Source: Brevinematales bacterium (GTDB lineage Bacteria; Spirochaetota; Brevinematia; Brevinematales; JAOACQ01). From it: 34,420 nt of DNA. A program made the position numbers and the translations under genes. Where the stretch lies: NCBI GenBank assembly GCA_020052515.1, contig JAGVOW010000067.1, positions 1-34,420 on the forward strand, written 5' to 3'. Shown here in pieces: positions 9,938 to 33,079 of the stretch (position 1 is the first letter of the stretch; each line of letters opens with the position of its first letter). A model generated the notes under the pieces. It saw only the letters and a program-made list of their open reading frames with translations. It was not told the origin of the DNA and ran no database searches.

Positions 9938-12025
9938 ATGAATAGCGAAGCTTACTTGTGGGCGCAAGCCGTTGTTGCGGTTTTCTTAGGATTATTAATG
10001 ATTGCAAATTATTTTAGATACAAACAAAAAATGTTTAAATACCTTTTTTTAGTATTTTGCCTCATCATTATTAAATCATTTGTTTATAATGAAATCCATC
10101 TGACTGACGTGAAATGGGTAGAGGAAATAAGGGAAGGAAATGTATATAGGCTTTTGGATCCTTCTTTAAGGCCGCTTTATGAATTCAAATATTTTATTTT
10201 CCAATGTTTGGAAATCCTATTTGCAATTTTATTAGCCTATTCTTTTATCTTGATTGTGAAAAAGGCGGAAAACAAAAAAACTAACGGTGTAAAAACGTTC
10301 GGGGCGCTACAGGCAGGGCTTGTTTTAATTTTGCTTGGCCTGGTGTGCGCGATTTCAGTTCAATACGGAGATAAAACGACTTTCAAAACAGATGTTTCTT
10401 TTGTAGAATTTCTAAAAGGCTCCGGGATATTTATTTTTGTATTCTGGAAAATAATTGTTTTATGCATGGCCTGGGTTTCCATTGCGAAAGGCTTAAACAG
10501 CTATTTTTTGAATGAAATCAGGATCATCAAGAAATACAAAATGCTGGTCTATTTCTTCTTGTTGATAGAGATTTTATTTGCTCTATTTTCCCTGCCTGGA
10601 AGCTATTACACTCATCCTACATGGTTTATTGTCCAGGTGTTTTCTCTTATCCTGTTGTCTTTCTTTGCGTTCGGCAATCAAACCGGCTTTATCGAATCAA
10701 TCCAGGAAAAGATTGTAGAACTGACAAAAGAAAAAAACACCATTATATCTTTTATGAAAGAAATCAGTACTCTGGTGGGTTCCGGTGATTTCGACCTGGA
10801 CACGGTTGTAGCGGCTATTGTGAATGACTCCGTAAAAGGAACTAATGCCAGAGGCGGGGCGGCTTTATTAAAAGATCCCCTGACCAACAAGCTTCTGGTG
10901 AAGTATGTTTCTGGTTTTTACCCTCCCACAAAGCCGGTAAAATCTTCCCCCGGAATAGTCATGACGGAAACTATGATAGTCGATAAATTTAAAGCAGAAA
11001 GAATCGGCATTGGAGAAGGCCTTTTGGGAACTGTTGTAGAAAAAGGCCAGGCAATTTATATTCCCGATGCAATGCAGGATGAAAAATTTGTTCAGACTGT
11101 ACCCGATGTTCTACGAGTAAGCTCTTTTCTCGCCGTACCGCTCCGAACCAAGGACGATGTGTTTGGAGTTCTGAGTGTCGTCGATGACTCGAAAATGTTT
11201 CTGGAAGGTGACTTGAGCTTCTTAGAAACACTGGGAGAACAGGCGGCTATTACGATTAAACAAATCCAGATGTACCAGGAAATACTCGAAAAGAAACAGG
11301 CAGAAAAGGAAATAGGAGTCGCGGGAGAAATTCAAAACTCACTTATTCCACATACTTTCCCGGATACCAACAAATATGAAATTTATGGCTTTTCCATACC
11401 CGCAAAAGGCGTAGGCGGAGATTATTATGACTATATTGATTTTGGGGACAATAAAATCGCGATGACTATGTTTGACGTTTCTGGAAAAGGTGTACCCGCT
11501 TCTCTGATTATGGTCATGATCCGCACAACTTTGAGAGCCATAGCTTCTCTGAATCAGGACACTAAAGATGTCTTATATAAACTGAACAACACAATTGCCG
11601 AAGAAATTTTTGAAGACCGCTATGCCACAGGATTTTATTTGCTTTTTGACGCGGAAAAAGGTATAATGAGTTATTCCAATGCCGGACACGGGCCAATGAT
11701 GGTTTACCGAACAGCAACGGATACTTTTGAATTTATGGACACTGAAGGGATGCCAGTGGGAATTATGTCCAATATTGAATACGGCCAAAATTATTCTATC
11801 TTAGAAAGAGGAGATATTGGAATACTTTACACTGATGGCATAACAGAAGCGATGAACCTGGCACACGAAGAATTTGGAATGGACCGCTTCAAAGAAATAG
11901 TTAAAAAGAACAAAAGAGAAAGTTCAAAAGAAATCGCGAATAAAGTATTGGAAGCAGTGACAAGGTTTATGGGCACCGCTCCGCAGCATGATGATGAAAC
12001 GCTTTTGGTCTTAAAATTTAAATAG
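9938..12025 (+). CDS. Membrane GAF-SpoIIE (PP2C) serine phosphatase, RsbU-like
   Basis: This protein has 695 residues. About seven transmembrane helices occupy residues 1-245, followed by a short coiled-coil and a GAF domain (about 270-435, containing GEGLLGTVVEKGQAIYIPDA). The C-terminus is a SpoIIE-type PP2C phosphatase domain (about 460-695). Metal-binding and core motifs are visible: GGDYYDYIDFGDNK, FDVSGKGVPASLIM, YSNAGHGPM, LYTDGITEAMN and HDDETLLVLK. Such phosphatases dephosphorylate a STAS anti-sigma-factor antagonist, and one is encoded 32 bases downstream. This makes a partner-switching module likely, although no HPK-type anti-sigma kinase gene is present here. AAAGGAGG precedes the ATG. 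Confidence 0.93.
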   Translation: MNSEAYLWAQAVVAVFLGLLMIANYFRYKQKMFKYLFLVFCLIIIKSFVYNEIHLTDVKWVEEIREGNVYRLLDPSLRPLYEFKYFIFQCLEILFAILLAYSFILIVKKAENKKTNGVKTFGALQAGLVLILLGLVCAISVQYGDKTTFKTDVSFVEFLKGSGIFIFVFWKIIVLCMAWVSIAKGLNSYFLNEIRIIKKYKMLVYFFLLIEILFALFSLPGSYYTHPTWFIVQVFSLILLSFFAFGNQTGFIESIQEKIVELTKEKNTIISFMKEISTLVGSGDFDLDTVVAAIVNDSVKGTNARGGAALLKDPLTNKLLVKYVSGFYPPTKPVKSSPGIVMTETMIVDKFKAERIGIGEGLLGTVVEKGQAIYIPDAMQDEKFVQTVPDVLRVSSFLAVPLRTKDDVFGVLSVVDDSKMFLEGDLSFLETLGEQAAITIKQIQMYQEILEKKQAEKEIGVAGEIQNSLIPHTFPDTNKYEIYGFSIPAKGVGGDYYDYIDFGDNKIAMTMFDVSGKGVPASLIMVMIRTTLRAIASLNQDTKDVLYKLNNTIAEEIFEDRYATGFYLLFDAEKGIMSYSNAGHGPMMVYRTATDTFEFMDTEGMPVGIMSNIEYGQNYSILERGDIGILYTDGITEAMNLAHEEFGMDRFKEIVKKNKRESSKEIANKVLEAVTRFMGTAPQHDDETLLVLKFK

Positions 12026-12057
12026 TCTAAATTAATTGCCAATCTGAGGAGGTTTTT

Positions 12058-12393
12058 ATGGAGATAAACAGAAGAGAATTAGGCGAAGTGATTGTTTTCG
12101 ACATCAACGGGGAAATTGATCTTTATAACGCCCCGGAAATTAAGGAAAAAATTAAGGAAGAGATGAATAAAAACAAGGTAAATATAATTATTAATCTGGA
12201 CAAAGTAAGCTATATTGATAGCTCTGGTATCGGTGTGCTGATATCCAGCCTCTCCAACCTGAAGAAAGTAGGCGGTGCGTTAAAACTGATCAATGTTTAC
12301 GCTTCGGTCCGGAAGGTATTTGAACTCACAAAATTGACCAGCTTTTTTGACATCTATGATAGTGAGTCCGATGCGCTGCAGGCTTTCAAATAA
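12058..12393 (+). CDS. STAS-domain anti-sigma-factor antagonist
   Basis: This protein of 111 residues is a complete STAS domain. The motif YIDSSGIGVLIS (D54, S55, S56) is the conserved phosphorylation loop of RsbV/SpoIIAA-type antagonists. In this family the unphosphorylated form binds and sequesters an anti-sigma factor, and phosphorylation by that kinase releases it. The upstream membrane SpoIIE phosphatase is the natural partner that would reactivate it. GAGGAGG lies just upstream of the ATG. The controlled sigma factor or downstream target is not in this window. Confidence 0.92.
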   Translation: MEINRRELGEVIVFDINGEIDLYNAPEIKEKIKEEMNKNKVNIIINLDKVSYIDSSGIGVLISSLSNLKKVGGALKLINVYASVRKVFELTKLTSFFDIYDSESDALQAFK

Positions 12394-12440: not shown

Positions 12441-13802
12441 ATGGAGATTCAGAAAATTGATTTACAGCAAAAAGAGATGCCCCGAGAATGGTATAACATT
12501 CAGGCGGATCTTCCAAAACCTCTTGATCCACCGTTAGCTCCGGATGGAAAACCCATTACTCCCTCTCAAATGGAAGTAATCTTTCCGAAAGCTTTAATCG
12601 AACAGGAAATGACACAGCAAAGATGGATAAAAATTCCGGAAGAGGTTCTGGATGTCTATTGCCGCTGGAGGCCTTCCCCTATATTTAGAGCCATTCATCT
12701 GGAAAAAGCCTTACAAACACCGGCGAAAATTTACTACAAATATGAGGGTTGCTCGCCGGCTGGTTCACATAAACCAAACACTTCTATAGCCCAAGCTTAT
12801 TACAACAAAAAAGAAGGCATAAAACGCCTGACTACAGAAACCGGCGCAGGCCAATGGGGAAGCGCTTTAGCTCTCGCGGGAAGCCTCTTTGGAATAGAAG
12901 TAAGAGTCTTTATGGTAAAAGCCAGCTACAACATGAAGCCGGCCCGCAAGCAAATTATGGCTATTTGGGGCGCGGAATGTATCGCCAGCCCCAGTCAGGA
13001 AACAGAATTCGGCAGAAAACTTTTAGCGCAGGACCCGGAAAACCCAGGAAGCCTGGGGATTGCTATCAGCGAAGCGGTGGAAGAAGCCGCTTCCAGGAAA
13101 GACACCAATTACGCGTTGGGAAGCGTGTTAAACCATGTGATGCTGCATCAGACTATTATTGGACAGGAAGCTAAACAACAGCTCAAATCGATTGGGGAAT
13201 ACCCTGACATAGTAATCGGCTGTATCGGCGGTGGAAGTAATTTTGCCGGCATTTCATTCCCTTTTGCGATGGATAAAATTCAGAAAAATAAAAAGATTAA
13301 GATCATTGCCGTAGAACCAAAGGCTTGCCCCTCCATTACGAAAGGCGCCTATGATTATGACTACGGCGATACTGCCGGTATGACGCCTATCCTAAAAATG
13401 TTTACACTTGGCCATACTTTTATGCCGCCTGCGATCCATGCCGGCGGATTGCGCTACCATGGAATGTCTCCATTAGTCAGCGCTTTAGTAAATCAAAATA
13501 TTGTTGAAGCCCGCTCTTATCATCAGACGGAAGTTTTTGACGCGGGATTGCTTTTTGCCAGAACAGAAGGGCTGGTTCCCGCTCCTGAAACCACTCACGC
13601 TATACGCGGCGCTATAGAAGAAGCTATAAAAGCGAAAGAAGAAGGGAAAGAAAAAACTATTCTCTTTAATTTTAGCGGCCATGGATTTTTTGACCTATCT
13701 TCCTATCAGCTTTATATGGAAGGCAAGCTGGAAGATTTTGATTACCATGAAGACGAAGTAAAAAAAGCTTTGAAAGATTTGCCATTCTGCAAGGGCAATT
13801 AG
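12441..13802 (+). CDS. trpB: TrpB2-type tryptophan synthase beta chain
   Basis: This PLP enzyme has 453 residues and belongs to the long TrpB2 class. The class is shown by the N-terminal extension beginning [17 protein letters not shown] is bound by K111 in [11 protein letters not shown], and the phosphate cradle is [10 protein letters not shown]. The core also contains [14 protein letters not shown]. TrpB2 proteins make tryptophan from indole and serine and often lack a TrpA partner; none is seen here. A weak ribosome-binding site (CGGAG) lies 6 bases before the ATG. It follows the STAS gene by 47 bases and precedes the fusion gene by 33 bases, so it may be cotranscribed with signalling genes. 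trpC is about 12 kb upstream. Confidence 0.93.
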
Positions 13803-13835: not shown

Positions 13836-16091
13836 ATGGAAAATCTAAAAGGCAAGGTTGTCGCTATTATCGGCGGCGGGCTTTTGCAGCTTCCTGTCAT
13901 AACAGCCGCTAAAAATTCCGGAGTAGAAGCAGTCGTAGTAGATATGAATCCAAAAGCCGCCGGTGTAAAAGAGGCTGATTATTTTATCAATTCGAGCACA
14001 CAGGACGCGGAAAACACTTCTTTTTTATTAGAAAAATTCAATCTGGAAACAAAAAAAATCAACGGGGTTTTAACCGTCGGCACAGATGCTTCATACACAG
14101 TAGCTGTCTGCGCGAAAAAATTGGGATTGCCTGGAATAGAGCCAGAAGCCGCGCTTGCCGCGAGTGATAAATTTCTAATGAGAAAAGCCCTCAGACAGGC
14201 TAAAGTTGCAGTTCCTGATTTTGAGATGGTTGACACCTACCCTAAAGCCATAGAAATTTTGGAACGATTCGGAAGTGATTGTGTAATCAAACCTACCCGC
14301 AACATGGGCGCGCGCGGCGTACGAAGGGTTTTTAATCTGGAAGATTTAAAAGAAGGTTTTGAATTAGCCCTGCATTATGCCGATAACGGCAAAGTCATTG
14401 TTGAGCAATACATTGACGCGCCGGAGCTTTCTATAGACGCGCTGATTTACGATGATAAAATTTTCATTACCGGGATAGCGGACAGAATCATTGAATACGA
14501 TCCTTTCTTTGTGGAAACAGGCCACATTATGCCTTCCCGTTTATCTGAAGACCTGATCAATTACGCGGTAGATACTTTCAAAAAAGGAATCAAAGCGCTG
14601 GGAATTTCTATCGGCGCCGCAAAAGGGGATATCAAGGTATCCTCCAGCGGCTGTTACATTGGGGAAATTGCCGCGAGGCTTTCCGGCGGATTTATGTCCA
14701 CTTACACTTACCCCTACTCTTCCGGCGTAGACCTGATGACTAACATGGTTCGAATCTCTATGGGTTTTTCCCCGCTTGATCTGGAACCCAAACAAAATTG
14801 GGTTTCCATTGAACGGTCTATCATTGCCGCGCCAGGAATGATTAAAGAAATCAAAGGGATAGAAGAGGCAAAGAAAATAAAGCAAGTGAAAAATATTTTC
14901 TTTGATTCCAGGGTTGGAGATAAAATCAAAGCCCCTTTAAACAATCTGGACAAATCGGGGCATATTATAGTCGCGGCGCCGACATTCCAGGAGGCCCTGA
15001 AAGCTTCCCATCAGGCAATGCGCGCTATCCATATTAAAACAGTGGAAGATGACGACCAGCTTATTCCGGAGAACACTGTTAATGAGAAAGCGCGCCTCAA
15101 ATTCAACGGCCGCTGTTTTGTCTGCCCGGACTGTGATGGGATCAAGTGCAGAGGAATGATGCCCGGTGTGGGCGGGATCGCTACCGGGAATGGTTTTGTC
15201 AACGCTATCAATCAAATCAGAAAGATAGATTTAGTGCCCAGTTATATTAACACCACGAAGTTTGTAAATACTGAAACAGATTTTTTTGGCATACCCATCC
15301 AGTTTCCTATTCTTCCAGGCCCATTAACCGGTTCTATCACCAATTTGGGGGGAGCGATCAGCGAGATTGACCTGGCCAGGGCCATTGTCAAAGGCGCAAA
15401 CCATGCCGGAACTATTGGATTTGTAGGCGATGGAGCAACTCCAACCAAATATAGGATTGGACTGCGTGTAGTGATGGAAAACTTTGGTTTGGCTGTACCG
15501 ATTTTTAAGCCCCGCTACGACAACAAGCTCATATTAGAACGGATTGAAGGAGCAAAAGAGGCCGGCGCTATCGCTGTAGGAATTGACATTGATGGGGCAT
15601 CTTTTCTCACTATGGAAATGAAAGGCCAGAGCACCAGTACTAAAACATTTGAGGAGCTCAAGGAATTGGTTGACTGCGCTGGAATTCCATTTATTTTAAA
15701 GGGAATCTTGTCCCCCAGAGACGCTGATACAGCTTTGAAAGCTGGAGTAAAAGCTCTCATTGTGTCCAACCATGGCGGGAGGGTAAATGACGCGTTGGCA
15801 GCGCCGATAGACGCACTGAAAGCCGTTAAGAAAGCGGTTGGAAATGACGCGCTGATTATTTTAGACGGCGGAGTCAGAAGCGGAAGCGATGTAGTGAAGT
15901 GTTTAGGCATGGGCGCTGACCTGGTGATGATCGGCAGGCCGGCTATGATAGCCGCTGTAGGCGCTGGAATACAAGGCGTCCGTCAATATTTCAACAAGAT
16001 CAATAATGAACTAAAAAAAGCGATGGCTTTTCTGGGTGTAGACAATATTAAAGATTTAAAAAACAATGATATATTCTTTTATTACAGATAA
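13836..16091 (+). CDS. Fusion of ATP-grasp ligase and FMN-dependent alpha-hydroxy-acid oxidoreductase
   Basis: This is a 751-residue two-part protein. Residues 1-400 form an ATP-grasp ligase: a Rossmann-like N-terminal lobe (VVAIIGGGLLQLPVITAAK), VIKPTRNMGARGV for nucleotide binding, VEQYIDAPE, and IGEIAARLSGGFM. Residues about 420-751 form a TIM-barrel FMN domain of the glycolate/lactate oxidase family: FILKGIL with the FMN-contacting lysine, SNHGGR (644-649) with the catalytic histidine, and DGGVRSG. A Cys cluster (C427, C430, C433, C438; pattern CxxCxxCxxxxC) joins the two parts and could bind metal. Each half is recognisable, but the combined reaction is unknown. A polypurine tract (GGGGAGAGAGGGGAGGGG) serves as the ribosome-binding region. 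It lies 6 bases before the GluRS-like gene. Confidence 0.88.
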   Translation: MENLKGKVVAIIGGGLLQLPVITAAKNSGVEAVVVDMNPKAAGVKEADYFINSSTQDAENTSFLLEKFNLETKKINGVLTVGTDASYTVAVCAKKLGLPGIEPEAALAASDKFLMRKALRQAKVAVPDFEMVDTYPKAIEILERFGSDCVIKPTRNMGARGVRRVFNLEDLKEGFELALHYADNGKVIVEQYIDAPELSIDALIYDDKIFITGIADRIIEYDPFFVETGHIMPSRLSEDLINYAVDTFKKGIKALGISIGAAKGDIKVSSSGCYIGEIAARLSGGFMSTYTYPYSSGVDLMTNMVRISMGFSPLDLEPKQNWVSIERSIIAAPGMIKEIKGIEEAKKIKQVKNIFFDSRVGDKIKAPLNNLDKSGHIIVAAPTFQEALKASHQAMRAIHIKTVEDDDQLIPENTVNEKARLKFNGRCFVCPDCDGIKCRGMMPGVGGIATGNGFVNAINQIRKIDLVPSYINTTKFVNTETDFFGIPIQFPILPGPLTGSITNLGGAISEIDLARAIVKGANHAGTIGFVGDGATPTKYRIGLRVVMENFGLAVPIFKPRYDNKLILERIEGAKEAGAIAVGIDIDGASFLTMEMKGQSTSTKTFEELKELVDCAGIPFILKGILSPRDADTALKAGVKALIVSNHGGRVNDALAAPIDALKAVKKAVGNDALIILDGGVRSGSDVVKCLGMGADLVMIGRPAMIAAVGAGIQGVRQYFNKINNELKKAMAFLGVDNIKDLKNNDIFFYYR

Positions 16092-16097
16092 ATAAAG

Positions 16098-17486
16098 ATG
16101 ATAAAAACTCGATTCGCGCCTTCTCCTAAAGAAAAACTTAATATAGACAATGTCAGAACAGCCCTTTTTGCCTGCCTTTACGCAAAACACACCGATGGAA
16201 AGTTTGTCCTTCGGATAGAAGATACTAATCAGGAACAATCGCTCCCCGAATACACGGAAAAGCTGATGAAAGATTTGTTATGGCTCGGATTAGATTGGGA
16301 TGAAGGACCAAAAAAGGGCGGACCGGCAGGTCCCTATCTGCAAAGCGAGCGGCTTCCTGTTTATCAAGAATACGCTAAAAAACTTATAGATGAAGGCCGA
16401 GCTTATCACTGCTACTGCACACCGGAAGAAATTGAAGCGGGAAAAGCCTCTCTGACTCTAAAAGGCAAAACACCCCATTACAACGGTCATTGCCGCCATT
16501 TGACAGAAACTCAAAAAAAGCAGTTTGAGAAGGAGGGAAGAAAACCCTCAGTCCGTTTTATGGCCGATGAGGGAGATTTTGTGATTCTCCGCGCAAACGG
16601 AATGCCGGTTTACAATTTTGCCGCAGTAATAGATGACGCTTTGATGGAGATCACTCATGTCCTCAGCGCTGATGAACCTTTATCCAATACAGCACGGCAA
16701 TCGTCGATTTATAAGGCTTTTGGCTTTACAGTGCCTGTGTTTGGCCACATAGCATTTGTGTATGGAAAAGACCATCAGAAACTCTCAAAAAGGCATGACG
16801 TAGTCAGTGTCGATGAATTGAGAAGCATGGGATATTTGCCCGATGCCGTGGTCAATTATTTATCGCTTCTCGGCTGGTCCAGCCCTGACGGAAGGGAAAT
16901 TCTTTCCCGTGAAGATTTAGTCAAACTTTTTGACATAGACCGGCTATCCGCAAGCCCGGCCCTATTTGATAATGCGAAGCTGGATTGGATCGGCAAACAT
17001 AAGATCATCAATGAGAAAAGTGATGCCATTTTTCAGCTGGCTCTTCCCTTCATTCAGGAAACCGGACTTTTAGATAAAGATTTTCACTTAACGAAAAAAA
17101 ATGAAGCCTTCTTGAAAGGCCTGGTGGAACTGACCAAAGGCTATTGCTCTCATTTATCGGAAATTAAGTCCCACATCATCTATTTCTTAACGGATGATTT
17201 TCCACTTGAAGAGGAAGCCAGAAAAATCTTAGAAAGGGAAGATTCTAAAAAAATCATTCAAAAGTTTTACTCCGCTATCCAATCTGAAAACCGCTCCTTT
17301 ACGGAAGAGGTTTTTAGCAAGATCTTCTCTCAAATCATGAAAGAAACCGGAATAAAAGGTAAGAATCTTTTTTTACCCTTACGAGCAGCCCTCACAGGAA
17401 GAATCCAGGGGCCTGAAATTTACTATCTGATCCCTGTTATCGGTAAAGAGAGAACCCTCAAGAGATTGGTTAAAGTAATGAATTGA
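16098..17486 (+). CDS. gltX: Deviant glutamyl-tRNA synthetase (GltX-like)
   Basis: A 462-residue class I synthetase of the GluRS type. It keeps RFAPSP, LRIEDTNQE, LDWDEGP, the SNTARQ helix, the KMSKS-equivalent KLSKR (228-232) and the C-terminal anticodon-binding region. Three core elements differ. The HIGH motif reads NIDN (15-18), the usual T-G before it reads K-E, and the RGEDH-type motif reads SADEP (190-194). In addition, about 20 residues normally found between the VRF and YNF segments (the D-IRG-...-LDD part of the acceptor-binding insertion) are missing near residues 158-168. It may be a GluRS paralogue with altered or lost aminoacylation. There is no clear Shine-Dalgarno; the ATG is 6 bases after the fusion gene's stop, so coupled translation is likely. 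Whether a standard gltX exists elsewhere cannot be seen. Confidence 0.8.
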   Translation: MIKTRFAPSPKEKLNIDNVRTALFACLYAKHTDGKFVLRIEDTNQEQSLPEYTEKLMKDLLWLGLDWDEGPKKGGPAGPYLQSERLPVYQEYAKKLIDEGRAYHCYCTPEEIEAGKASLTLKGKTPHYNGHCRHLTETQKKQFEKEGRKPSVRFMADEGDFVILRANGMPVYNFAAVIDDALMEITHVLSADEPLSNTARQSSIYKAFGFTVPVFGHIAFVYGKDHQKLSKRHDVVSVDELRSMGYLPDAVVNYLSLLGWSSPDGREILSREDLVKLFDIDRLSASPALFDNAKLDWIGKHKIINEKSDAIFQLALPFIQETGLLDKDFHLTKKNEAFLKGLVELTKGYCSHLSEIKSHIIYFLTDDFPLEEEARKILEREDSKKIIQKFYSAIQSENRSFTEEVFSKIFSQIMKETGIKGKNLFLPLRAALTGRIQGPEIYYLIPVIGKERTLKRLVKVMN

Positions 17487-17698
17487 CTTTTTATCTCTTT
17501 GAGATTAATATTATTCTGTATGAAACAACACTTATGTTTAAAGCAAAATATAGTGGAATAAATTACTTTGGCAGAATTTATGACATCAAAGAAGAGCTAA
17601 AAAAGAAATTTCATAAAGAAGTAGATATAGCTGACAAGAATGCTTTGAATAAAATCGGTAAAAAATATATATTGCCAGGGGGGGTTAAATATGTTTAA
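17483..17698 (+). pseudogene. C-terminal remnant of an MNT-type nucleotidyltransferase
   Basis: The 71-codon frame opens at a TTG overlapping the gltX stop; an internal ATG lies at 17534. The last ~45 residues (IKEELKKKFHKEVDIADKNA, then ALNKIGKKYIL...VKYV) match the usual C-terminal pattern of minimal nucleotidyltransferases (MntA antitoxins): a helix, (K)VDLV, an AL...IL segment and a final V-x-YV. The catalytic GSxARG...DxD half is absent, so the gene is truncated. These proteins normally pair with a HEPN toxin, and the short frame that overlaps the end may be what is left of one. The identification is from pattern memory only. Confidence 0.45.
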
Positions 17699-17792
17699 TG
17701 AAACCACACTGGCAAAGCTTGAGTTTGCCCTTATGCTGAAATTGAAAACAATCATTATTCGATTATTGGAGCAGTCTCAAAATTCAATCTAA
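17691..17792 (+). pseudogene. 33-codon frame, possible HEPN remnant
   Basis: The ATG at 17691 overlaps the stop of the MNT-like remnant by 8 bases and follows a run of seven G. The frame encodes a short, Leu/Lys-rich helical peptide (TTLAKLEFALMLKLKTIIIR) and stops after 33 residues. In MNT-HEPN modules the HEPN gene usually overlaps or follows the nucleotidyltransferase, so this could be its truncated N-terminus. It is far too short for a HEPN protein (about 110-140 residues), and the similarity is not clear. Confidence 0.25.
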
Positions 17793-17803
17793 TATTCGCA
17801 GCA

Positions 17804-17832
17804 TTGACATTTTCCTTTCTATTGTGTATTAT
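17804..17832 (+). promoter_or_regulatory. Strong promoter for uvrC
   Basis: TTGACA (17804-17809, perfect), 17 bases, then TATTAT (17827-17832). Transcription should start about 17838-17841, at or just before the uvrC ATG at 17841. The mRNA would be leaderless or nearly so. Confidence 0.7.
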
Positions 17833-17840
17833 AAAAAAGC

Positions 17841-32140: not shown

Positions 32141-33079
32141 ATGGGAAGAAGAACAATCGACCAAATGGAAAAGAGGTTTTCAGTCAATCTGGATGAGGAG
32201 AGGTTTTATGAGGATATTTTTCTCAGGACAAATCTTCTGCTGAAAAAGAAGGACCAAGAGAGGCTGAGAAATTCATCTGTGGCAACTATTGGATTGGGCG
32301 GGATCGGCGGAATGTCCGCGGAAATGATCGTCCGCTGCGGGATCGGAACTGTGGGACTTGCCGACATTGATTTCTTTGAACCCACCAATCTGAACAGACA
32401 GCTTTACTCTGACTTTTCGAATGCCTATGGCCCAAATCATCGTAGCCTAGACAAGAAAGGCCATGTCGCGGAAGCGCGGATGAAGCAGATCAATCCATTC
32501 TGTAAAGTTGAAGTAATCGCCAACGGCATCAACAACCAGAATGTCGAGGATTTCTGTAAAAAACAGGATGTCATTATCGCGCAGCCGGACCGGGAATCCA
32601 TAAAAGTATTGATTCACAGGATCGCCAAAAAGCATTCGATCCCGGTTGTTACTTCTTCACGTGTGAACTGCAATGGAAATCGCTGGACAATCGCGGCAAA
32701 GGTCTGGGATTATAAAAACAATCCGGGTTTAAAAACATTTGAGGAGACCAATCATCCGGCTCTCTTGAAATATTCTCTGGAAGAACTGACTTCGGATGTT
32801 TTAGGCGAATATGACAAACAAGATAAGGCAAAGGTCCGGAATAGATGGAAGGAGATCATTGAAAACCAGGAAAGTGAAAAATATGGGCTGAACTGTCATG
32901 AAAACTCCATGGAAGTTCTGAATAAATACCCGGATACCTTCCATAAATGCCATATCATCGCGCCGATAGCAAATATCGCCGGAGCGATGGGAAGTATTAA
33001 CGCTATTAAATTATTGCTGGATCAGCCTATTTACAACTTTGCTTTCGATTTCTGGAATGGCAACGCATTAGAAATATAA
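32141..33079 (+). CDS. ThiF/MoeB/E1-like adenylyltransferase in the alginate-type operon
   Basis: This protein has 312 residues. A Rossmann-type ATP-binding core shows GLGGIGG (51-57), ADID (74-77), NLNRQLY with the arginine finger R86, and K105/K106 in the expected position. The later Asp is in AQPDRES (D150), where MoeB has an Asp-rich loop. CxxC zinc pairs are absent, and no thioester cysteine can be assigned with confidence. The residues after about 180 do not match standard MoeB. The family activates a carboxyl group by adenylation, usually the C-terminus of a ubiquitin-like protein; no such partner is visible. It lies 25 bases after alg8 and 16 bases before the beta-helix gene, so it is cotranscribed. 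A role in polymer synthesis would be new. Confidence 0.85.
   Translation: MGRRTIDQMEKRFSVNLDEERFYEDIFLRTNLLLKKKDQERLRNSSVATIGLGGIGGMSAEMIVRCGIGTVGLADIDFFEPTNLNRQLYSDFSNAYGPNHRSLDKKGHVAEARMKQINPFCKVEVIANGINNQNVEDFCKKQDVIIAQPDRESIKVLIHRIAKKHSIPVVTSSRVNCNGNRWTIAAKVWDYKNNPGLKTFEETNHPALLKYSLEELTSDVLGEYDKQDKAKVRNRWKEIIENQESEKYGLNCHENSMEVLNKYPDTFHKCHIIAPIANIAGAMGSINAIKLLLDQPIYNFAFDFWNGNALEI

Follow-up and report, generated by a model that had tools for sequence, protein, structure and literature searches.

The Locus and Its Genes

The window, by which we mean the whole stretch of DNA analyzed (34,420 nucleotides of contig JAGVOW010000067.1 from the Brevinematales assembly GCA_020052515.1), carries an intact open reading frame with no internal stops whose 462-residue product is a full-length homologue of the bacterial GluRS, as judged from its tRNA-synt_1c and Anticodon_2 domains and from a score of 459 bits on the TIGR00464 model (cut-off 290). 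The GluRS of this order form two lineages, A and B, and the window protein belongs to A (Table 1).

Table 1. Features of the window discussed in the text.
Feature	Position	Strand	Remark
SpoIIE-type phosphatase and STAS anti-sigma antagonist pair	9938-12393		
TrpB-like PLP enzyme	12441-13802		NF009057/TIGR01415
ATP-grasp (L-amino-acid-ligase type)/FMN-dehydrogenase fusion	13836-16091	+	Upstream neighbor; unlinked to gltX in relatives
Start region of the GluRS-like gene	16086-16097	+	6 nt past the stop of the upstream gene; without Shine-Dalgarno
GluRS-A-like gene, putative pseudo-synthetase	16098-17486	+	462 aa, intact frame
ATP-phosphate loop, PTG to PKE	16128-16133	+	T11K, G12E
HIGH-type motif, HxGN to NIDN	16140-16151	+	H15N, G17D
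RIEDTDxxR to RIEDTNQEQ	16212-16238	+	D44N, R47Q
Zinc-type motif CxC-x20-Y-x3-C, kept	16410-16493	+	Acceptor-binding domain, residues 105-132; definition from PMC4381286
Junction of in-frame beta-hairpin loss (~20 residues)	16569-16574	+	Orthologues have the hairpin
Tth Asn191 position	16623-16625	+	V176A
R(A/G)(D/E)(E/D)H to SADEP	16665-16679	+	R190S (Tth Arg205), H194P
KLSKRHG to KLSKRHD	16779-16799	+	KMSKS motif intact, next Gly lost
Anticodon-binding domain, kept	17034-17474	+	Tyr at Tth Arg358 position, likewise in several A orthologues
Non-coding gap	17487-17840		
Standalone ThiF/E1-like protein	32141-33079		

The initial annotation had proposed that the GluRS-like gene shares an undescribed pathway with the ATP-grasp/FMN fusion upstream of it, and the genomes of relatives lend this no support, as the two genes are not adjacent in those checked. 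The fusion is widespread in the phylum, with near-complete copies in about 30 of 41 genomes, and in family f3 (L078, L080) its partner is the TrpB-like gene, which in the window is found directly upstream of it, and not gltX. The A copy of gltX in relatives sits near uvrD, prfB or galU, the location in the window being private, and the fusion was not beside gltX at the loci examined, so that an operon of the two, not seen in these relatives, was rejected. If an undescribed pathway is to be sought here, the fusion is a stronger candidate for it than the GluRS-like gene. The phosphatase/antagonist pair has a parallel in family f2 (L082), where such a pair is found directly upstream of the ATP-grasp/FMN gene.

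The gap that follows the GluRS-like gene contains broken short reading frames (e.g., MFKAKYSGINYFGRIYDIKEELKKKFHKEVDIADK...) and is perhaps a gene remnant. It has no significant Pfam match, and a nucleotidyltransferase as its source was a guess that Pfam did not support. The ThiF/E1-like protein matches the E1 part of the PADLOC E1-E2 models. PADLOC recognizes none of the GluRS-like, ATP-grasp/FMN and TrpB-like proteins, and a defense system was accordingly set aside; no RNA element was matched by Rfam within the window.

Losses in the Substrate Pocket and the Acceptor-Binding Domain

The diagnostic stretches of the window protein read APSPKEKLNIDNVRT, RIEDTNQEQ, VLSADEPLSNT and KLSKRHD, and their equivalents in the A orthologues, as aligned, read APSPTGxxH(V/I)GN(V/I)R(T/S), RIEDTDxxR, R(A/G)(D/E)(E/D)HLSNT and KLSKRHG. 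Absent are thus the HIGH-type motif together with the T-G loop (PKEKLNIDN in their place) and the RGEDH motif with the glutamate-binding Arg205 (SADEP, R190S), and the KMSKS-type motif is present as KLSKR. Compared to the orthologues, there are ten substitutions, T11K, G12E, H15N, G17D, D44N, R47Q, V176A, R190S, H194P and G234D, which correspond to positions 11, 12, 15, 17, 44, 47, 191, 205, 209 and 249 of the T. thermophilus (Tth) enzyme (numbering checked against the sequence of PDB 1j09), each of them a single-base step. The alignment therefore bears out what had been noticed from the sequence alone, the replacement of the HIGH, T-G and RGEDH motifs next to an intact KLSKR, and adds D44N, R47Q, V176A and G234D to the list.

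The missing segment of about 20 residues, also noticed initially, lies between VRFMADE and GDFVIL (Tth 151 and 154-173) and leaves the acceptor-binding (CP) domain incomplete. When the AlphaFold model of this protein (pLDDT 91, pTM 0.85) is set against that of its sister from the same family, G001_A (pLDDT 93.5), the gap turns out to be exactly one beta-hairpin, formed in G001_A by strands 161-165 and 169-173. The best structural match of the window model is the GluRS 2o5r (T. maritima GluRS1; TM 0.87, 42% identity). An assembly or sequencing error is an unlikely source of these features, with ten separate codons changed, a structural element lost in frame, and the frame open. Codon usage of the gene is ordinary and uninformative. 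A Shine-Dalgarno sequence is present in the nine A orthologues inspected and in the B copy of this same genome, and the window A copy is without one.

Two GluRS, GlnRS, and GatCAB

The genome (2.6 Mb, 99.63% complete) encodes one other GluRS, of lineage B, on contig C90, and this one is canonical at every motif (HLGSAR, RGEDH, PLSKR). Of the two options in the initial annotation, a paralogue or an unusual sole GluRS, the first one stands and the second is ruled out by this canonical enzyme, found where a second gltX had been suggested to be sought. Also encoded are a GlnRS (contig C97, 753 bits), both GatB and GatA, and tRNA genes for Gln (TTG, CTG) and Glu (TTC, CTC), making the A copy redundant. 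Across the 13 genomes of the order no AsnRS reached the cut-off, and GatCAB is thus probably still needed for Asn-tRNA.

The inventory of these enzymes varies with the family. Families f2 and f3 possess canonical A and B, and family f4 possesses A only, with GlnRS not found in any of the three; family f1, made up of the window's genome and G001, possesses A, B and GlnRS. The two GlnRS of f1 are sisters in the tree (100/98), and window A is sister to the canonical G001_A (93/82), with which it shares 63% identity, inside the A clade (100/99). All 11 complete A orthologues in the order, this sister included, keep both the motifs and the hairpin, and so no close homologue was found with the combination that would mark an ordinary lineage variant, the altered motifs in the only GluRS of a genome. 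The A copy without the motifs is seen in this genome only, among 13 genomes of the order and 18 of the class, the genus being represented by this species alone. A scan of genome contigs returned only 8 distant GluRS.

A is probably a non-discriminating or tRNA-Gln-charging form, and B is probably the enzyme for tRNA-Glu. The position of Tth Arg358 is occupied by Y, N or S in the A clade and by R in B. In T. thermophilus this arginine is of the discriminating type, but the same mutation was without effect in H. pylori (PMC3927822). The single GluRS of family f5 (L021-L024, L026) has Arg at this position, and in this family GatB was found and GlnRS was not, which makes it an exception to the Arg358 discrimination rule; for the same reason, Arg358 is not proof of the specificities of A and B.

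Where the Conserved Positions Were Lost

The window protein violates 8 of 51 GluRS positions conserved at 97% or more, versus 0-4 in other GluRS, with the exception of the distant outgroup T. thermophilus (10 of 54). Over the 74 columns conserved at 90% or more among 38 other GluRS, its violations are found in the substrate pocket (10 of 29) and not elsewhere (0 of 45; Fisher p=2.8e-5, a somewhat optimistic value, as the pocket motifs were drawn from general knowledge of the Tth GluRS contacts and fixed after the first list of violations). With only the fully invariant columns considered, the respective figures are 6 of 19 and 0 of 20 (p=0.008).

A comparison restricted to lineage A points to the same distribution. 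Of the positions that do not vary among the 11 other A proteins, 4 of 46 have changed in the stem-contact and anticodon domains, all conservatively (F-L, E-D, L-V, V-I), with 6 of 44 changed in the first Rossmann half, 9 of 39 in the second, and 8 of 34 in the CP domain, all of the latter by deletion. Private changes outside the motifs number 28 in window A to 19 in G001_A, not clearly different and indicative of a nearly normal rate, and all private changes number 40 to 21, a modest excess. Uniform relaxation that had hit 10 of 74 conserved codons would be expected to produce about 4.4 stops, and none is observed (P(0)=0.013). The dN/dS ratio is uninformative here, with saturated synonymous sites, one genome, and no close species. 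With violations confined to the pocket and no stops, constraint appears to have been lifted on catalysis and to persist on the rest of the protein, the pattern of a pseudo-enzyme; with catalytic residues lost and with the fold and the tRNA-binding parts constrained, the protein in this respect agrees with an aaRS pseudoenzyme, and it does so in one species only.

Interpretation

We consider it most probable, at about 55%, that window A is a pseudo-synthetase devoid of catalysis, which may have been retained for binding tRNA. It would be a degenerate member of an old GluRS gene pair of this order, in which A would once have fed GatCAB as the non-discriminating or tRNA-Gln-charging enzyme, with B serving tRNA-Glu. 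The presence of GlnRS in family f1 would have made A redundant, and the window copy would then have lost the adenylate chemistry, with the ATP loop, HIGH, and the Arg that binds glutamate, as well as one hairpin in the domain responsible for placing the CCA end. As both the adenylate residues and this hairpin are lost, the protein should be unable to activate glutamate or charge tRNA, and its inactivity is very likely. Since G001, also of family f1, still has a canonical A, GlnRS was probably already present in this family when catalysis was lost, and that GlnRS was the cause is likely. As the fold, the zinc motif, and the stem-contact and anticodon domains are conserved, window A has most likely survived as a folded pseudo-synthetase, which could still bind tRNA-Gln or tRNA-Glu, its role being non-catalytic, in binding or regulation; for a tRNA-binding role having been retained we see even odds.

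The main rival, to which we assign a substantial if lesser probability, is that A, redundant after GlnRS, has lost its function and is drifting, a young relic whose frame is intact only through recency. Occurrence in one genome only counts against a pseudo-synthetase. Other facts that do so would be natural for such a relic: the missing Shine-Dalgarno, a location peculiar to this genome, with another gene ending 6 nt before the start, and pocket changes that are all single-base steps, to which the modest excess of private changes and the redundant enzyme set may be added. However, even drift should not restrict violations of conserved columns to the pocket, nor would it be expected to remove exactly one hairpin cleanly, and an evenly relaxed gene with as many conserved-site changes should by now carry about four stops.

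Two further possibilities would leave the protein active. In one, the remodeled pocket would still use KLSKR and ATP to activate a different substrate, sharing a pathway with the two genes directly upstream, TrpB-like and ATP-grasp/FMN; the clustering of the changes in one pocket agrees with this, as do the intact KLSKR and the position immediately behind those genes. The equivalents of T11, G12, H15 and G17 are the transition-state residues of class I synthetases on the ATP side, and all four are gone. With the linkage also absent in relatives, most of which carry the fusion without an adjoining gltX, such an enzyme is improbable. The loss of these residues together with the Arg205 equivalent on the glutamate side likewise makes unlikely the initial suggestion that glutamate or another substrate is activated without normal charging. 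In the other, the protein would be an ordinary variant of its lineage, odd in its motifs but still active as a GluRS, as its score above the TIGR00464 cut-off and its high-confidence GluRS fold might imply. This we regard as very improbable, such motifs having been found in no other GluRS examined, the sister species included, with a canonical GluRS also present and with the hairpin on the CCA side gone.

Relation to Known Systems and Significance

The degenerate A copy shares with bacterial GluRS of the TIGR00464 type (non-discriminating or GluRS2 type; of the relatives with a solved structure, T. maritima GluRS1, 2o5r, is the closest) the full-length architecture, the zinc motif, the stem-contact and anticodon domains, and KLSKR, but differs from them in the loss of the HIGH-type motif, the PTG loop, the Asp and Arg of RIEDTD, Arg205, and the CP hairpin, and is best read as inactive. 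Like GluQ-RS (YadB), it is a GluRS paralogue beside a normal GluRS; however, GluQ-RS is catalytic without an anticodon domain, and the window protein is the reverse. With Anticodon_2 present and with 192.7 bits on the best NCBIfam GluQRS model (cut-off 250), identity with GluQ-RS was rejected. Paralogues of aaRS that lack adenylation, HisZ among them, likewise keep the synthetase fold (PMC9437257), but HisZ belongs to class II as a paralogue of HisRS and has HisG as its known partner, whereas the window protein keeps a tRNA-binding domain and has no conserved partner known. The enzyme inventory of the genome is identical to that of the 2|+|+ class (two GluRS, GlnRS, GatCAB) reported for epsilon- and alpha-proteobacteria, and a destroyed active site is not described in the part of the report devoted to this class (PMC3927822). 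T. maritima GluRS2 is mentioned there as inactive (PMC3927822), and the PDB entry 3afh names GluRS2 non-discriminating. For GluRS, YadB/GluQ-RS is the only paralogue with another function named in a review table (PMC9437257). The pseudo-aaRS are thus already known as a kind, and the window protein is a full-length pseudo-GluRS from one genome. That a full-length GluRS has turned into a dedicated non-catalytic binder of tRNA-Gln/Glu after GlnRS took over, for example, shielding tRNA-Gln from mischarging or regulating the working GluRS or GatCAB, is a tentative proposal.

Overall, the order presents stages in the replacement of the indirect route to Gln-tRNA: A and B without GlnRS, A alone, A and B with GlnRS and a still canonical A (the sister), and A and B with GlnRS and a very probably dead A, as in the window's genome. 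The window A copy represents one such stage, showing a possible fate of a GluRS once GlnRS makes it unnecessary, and it makes testable whether a GluRS that has lost its chemistry may have its body preserved for binding tRNA.
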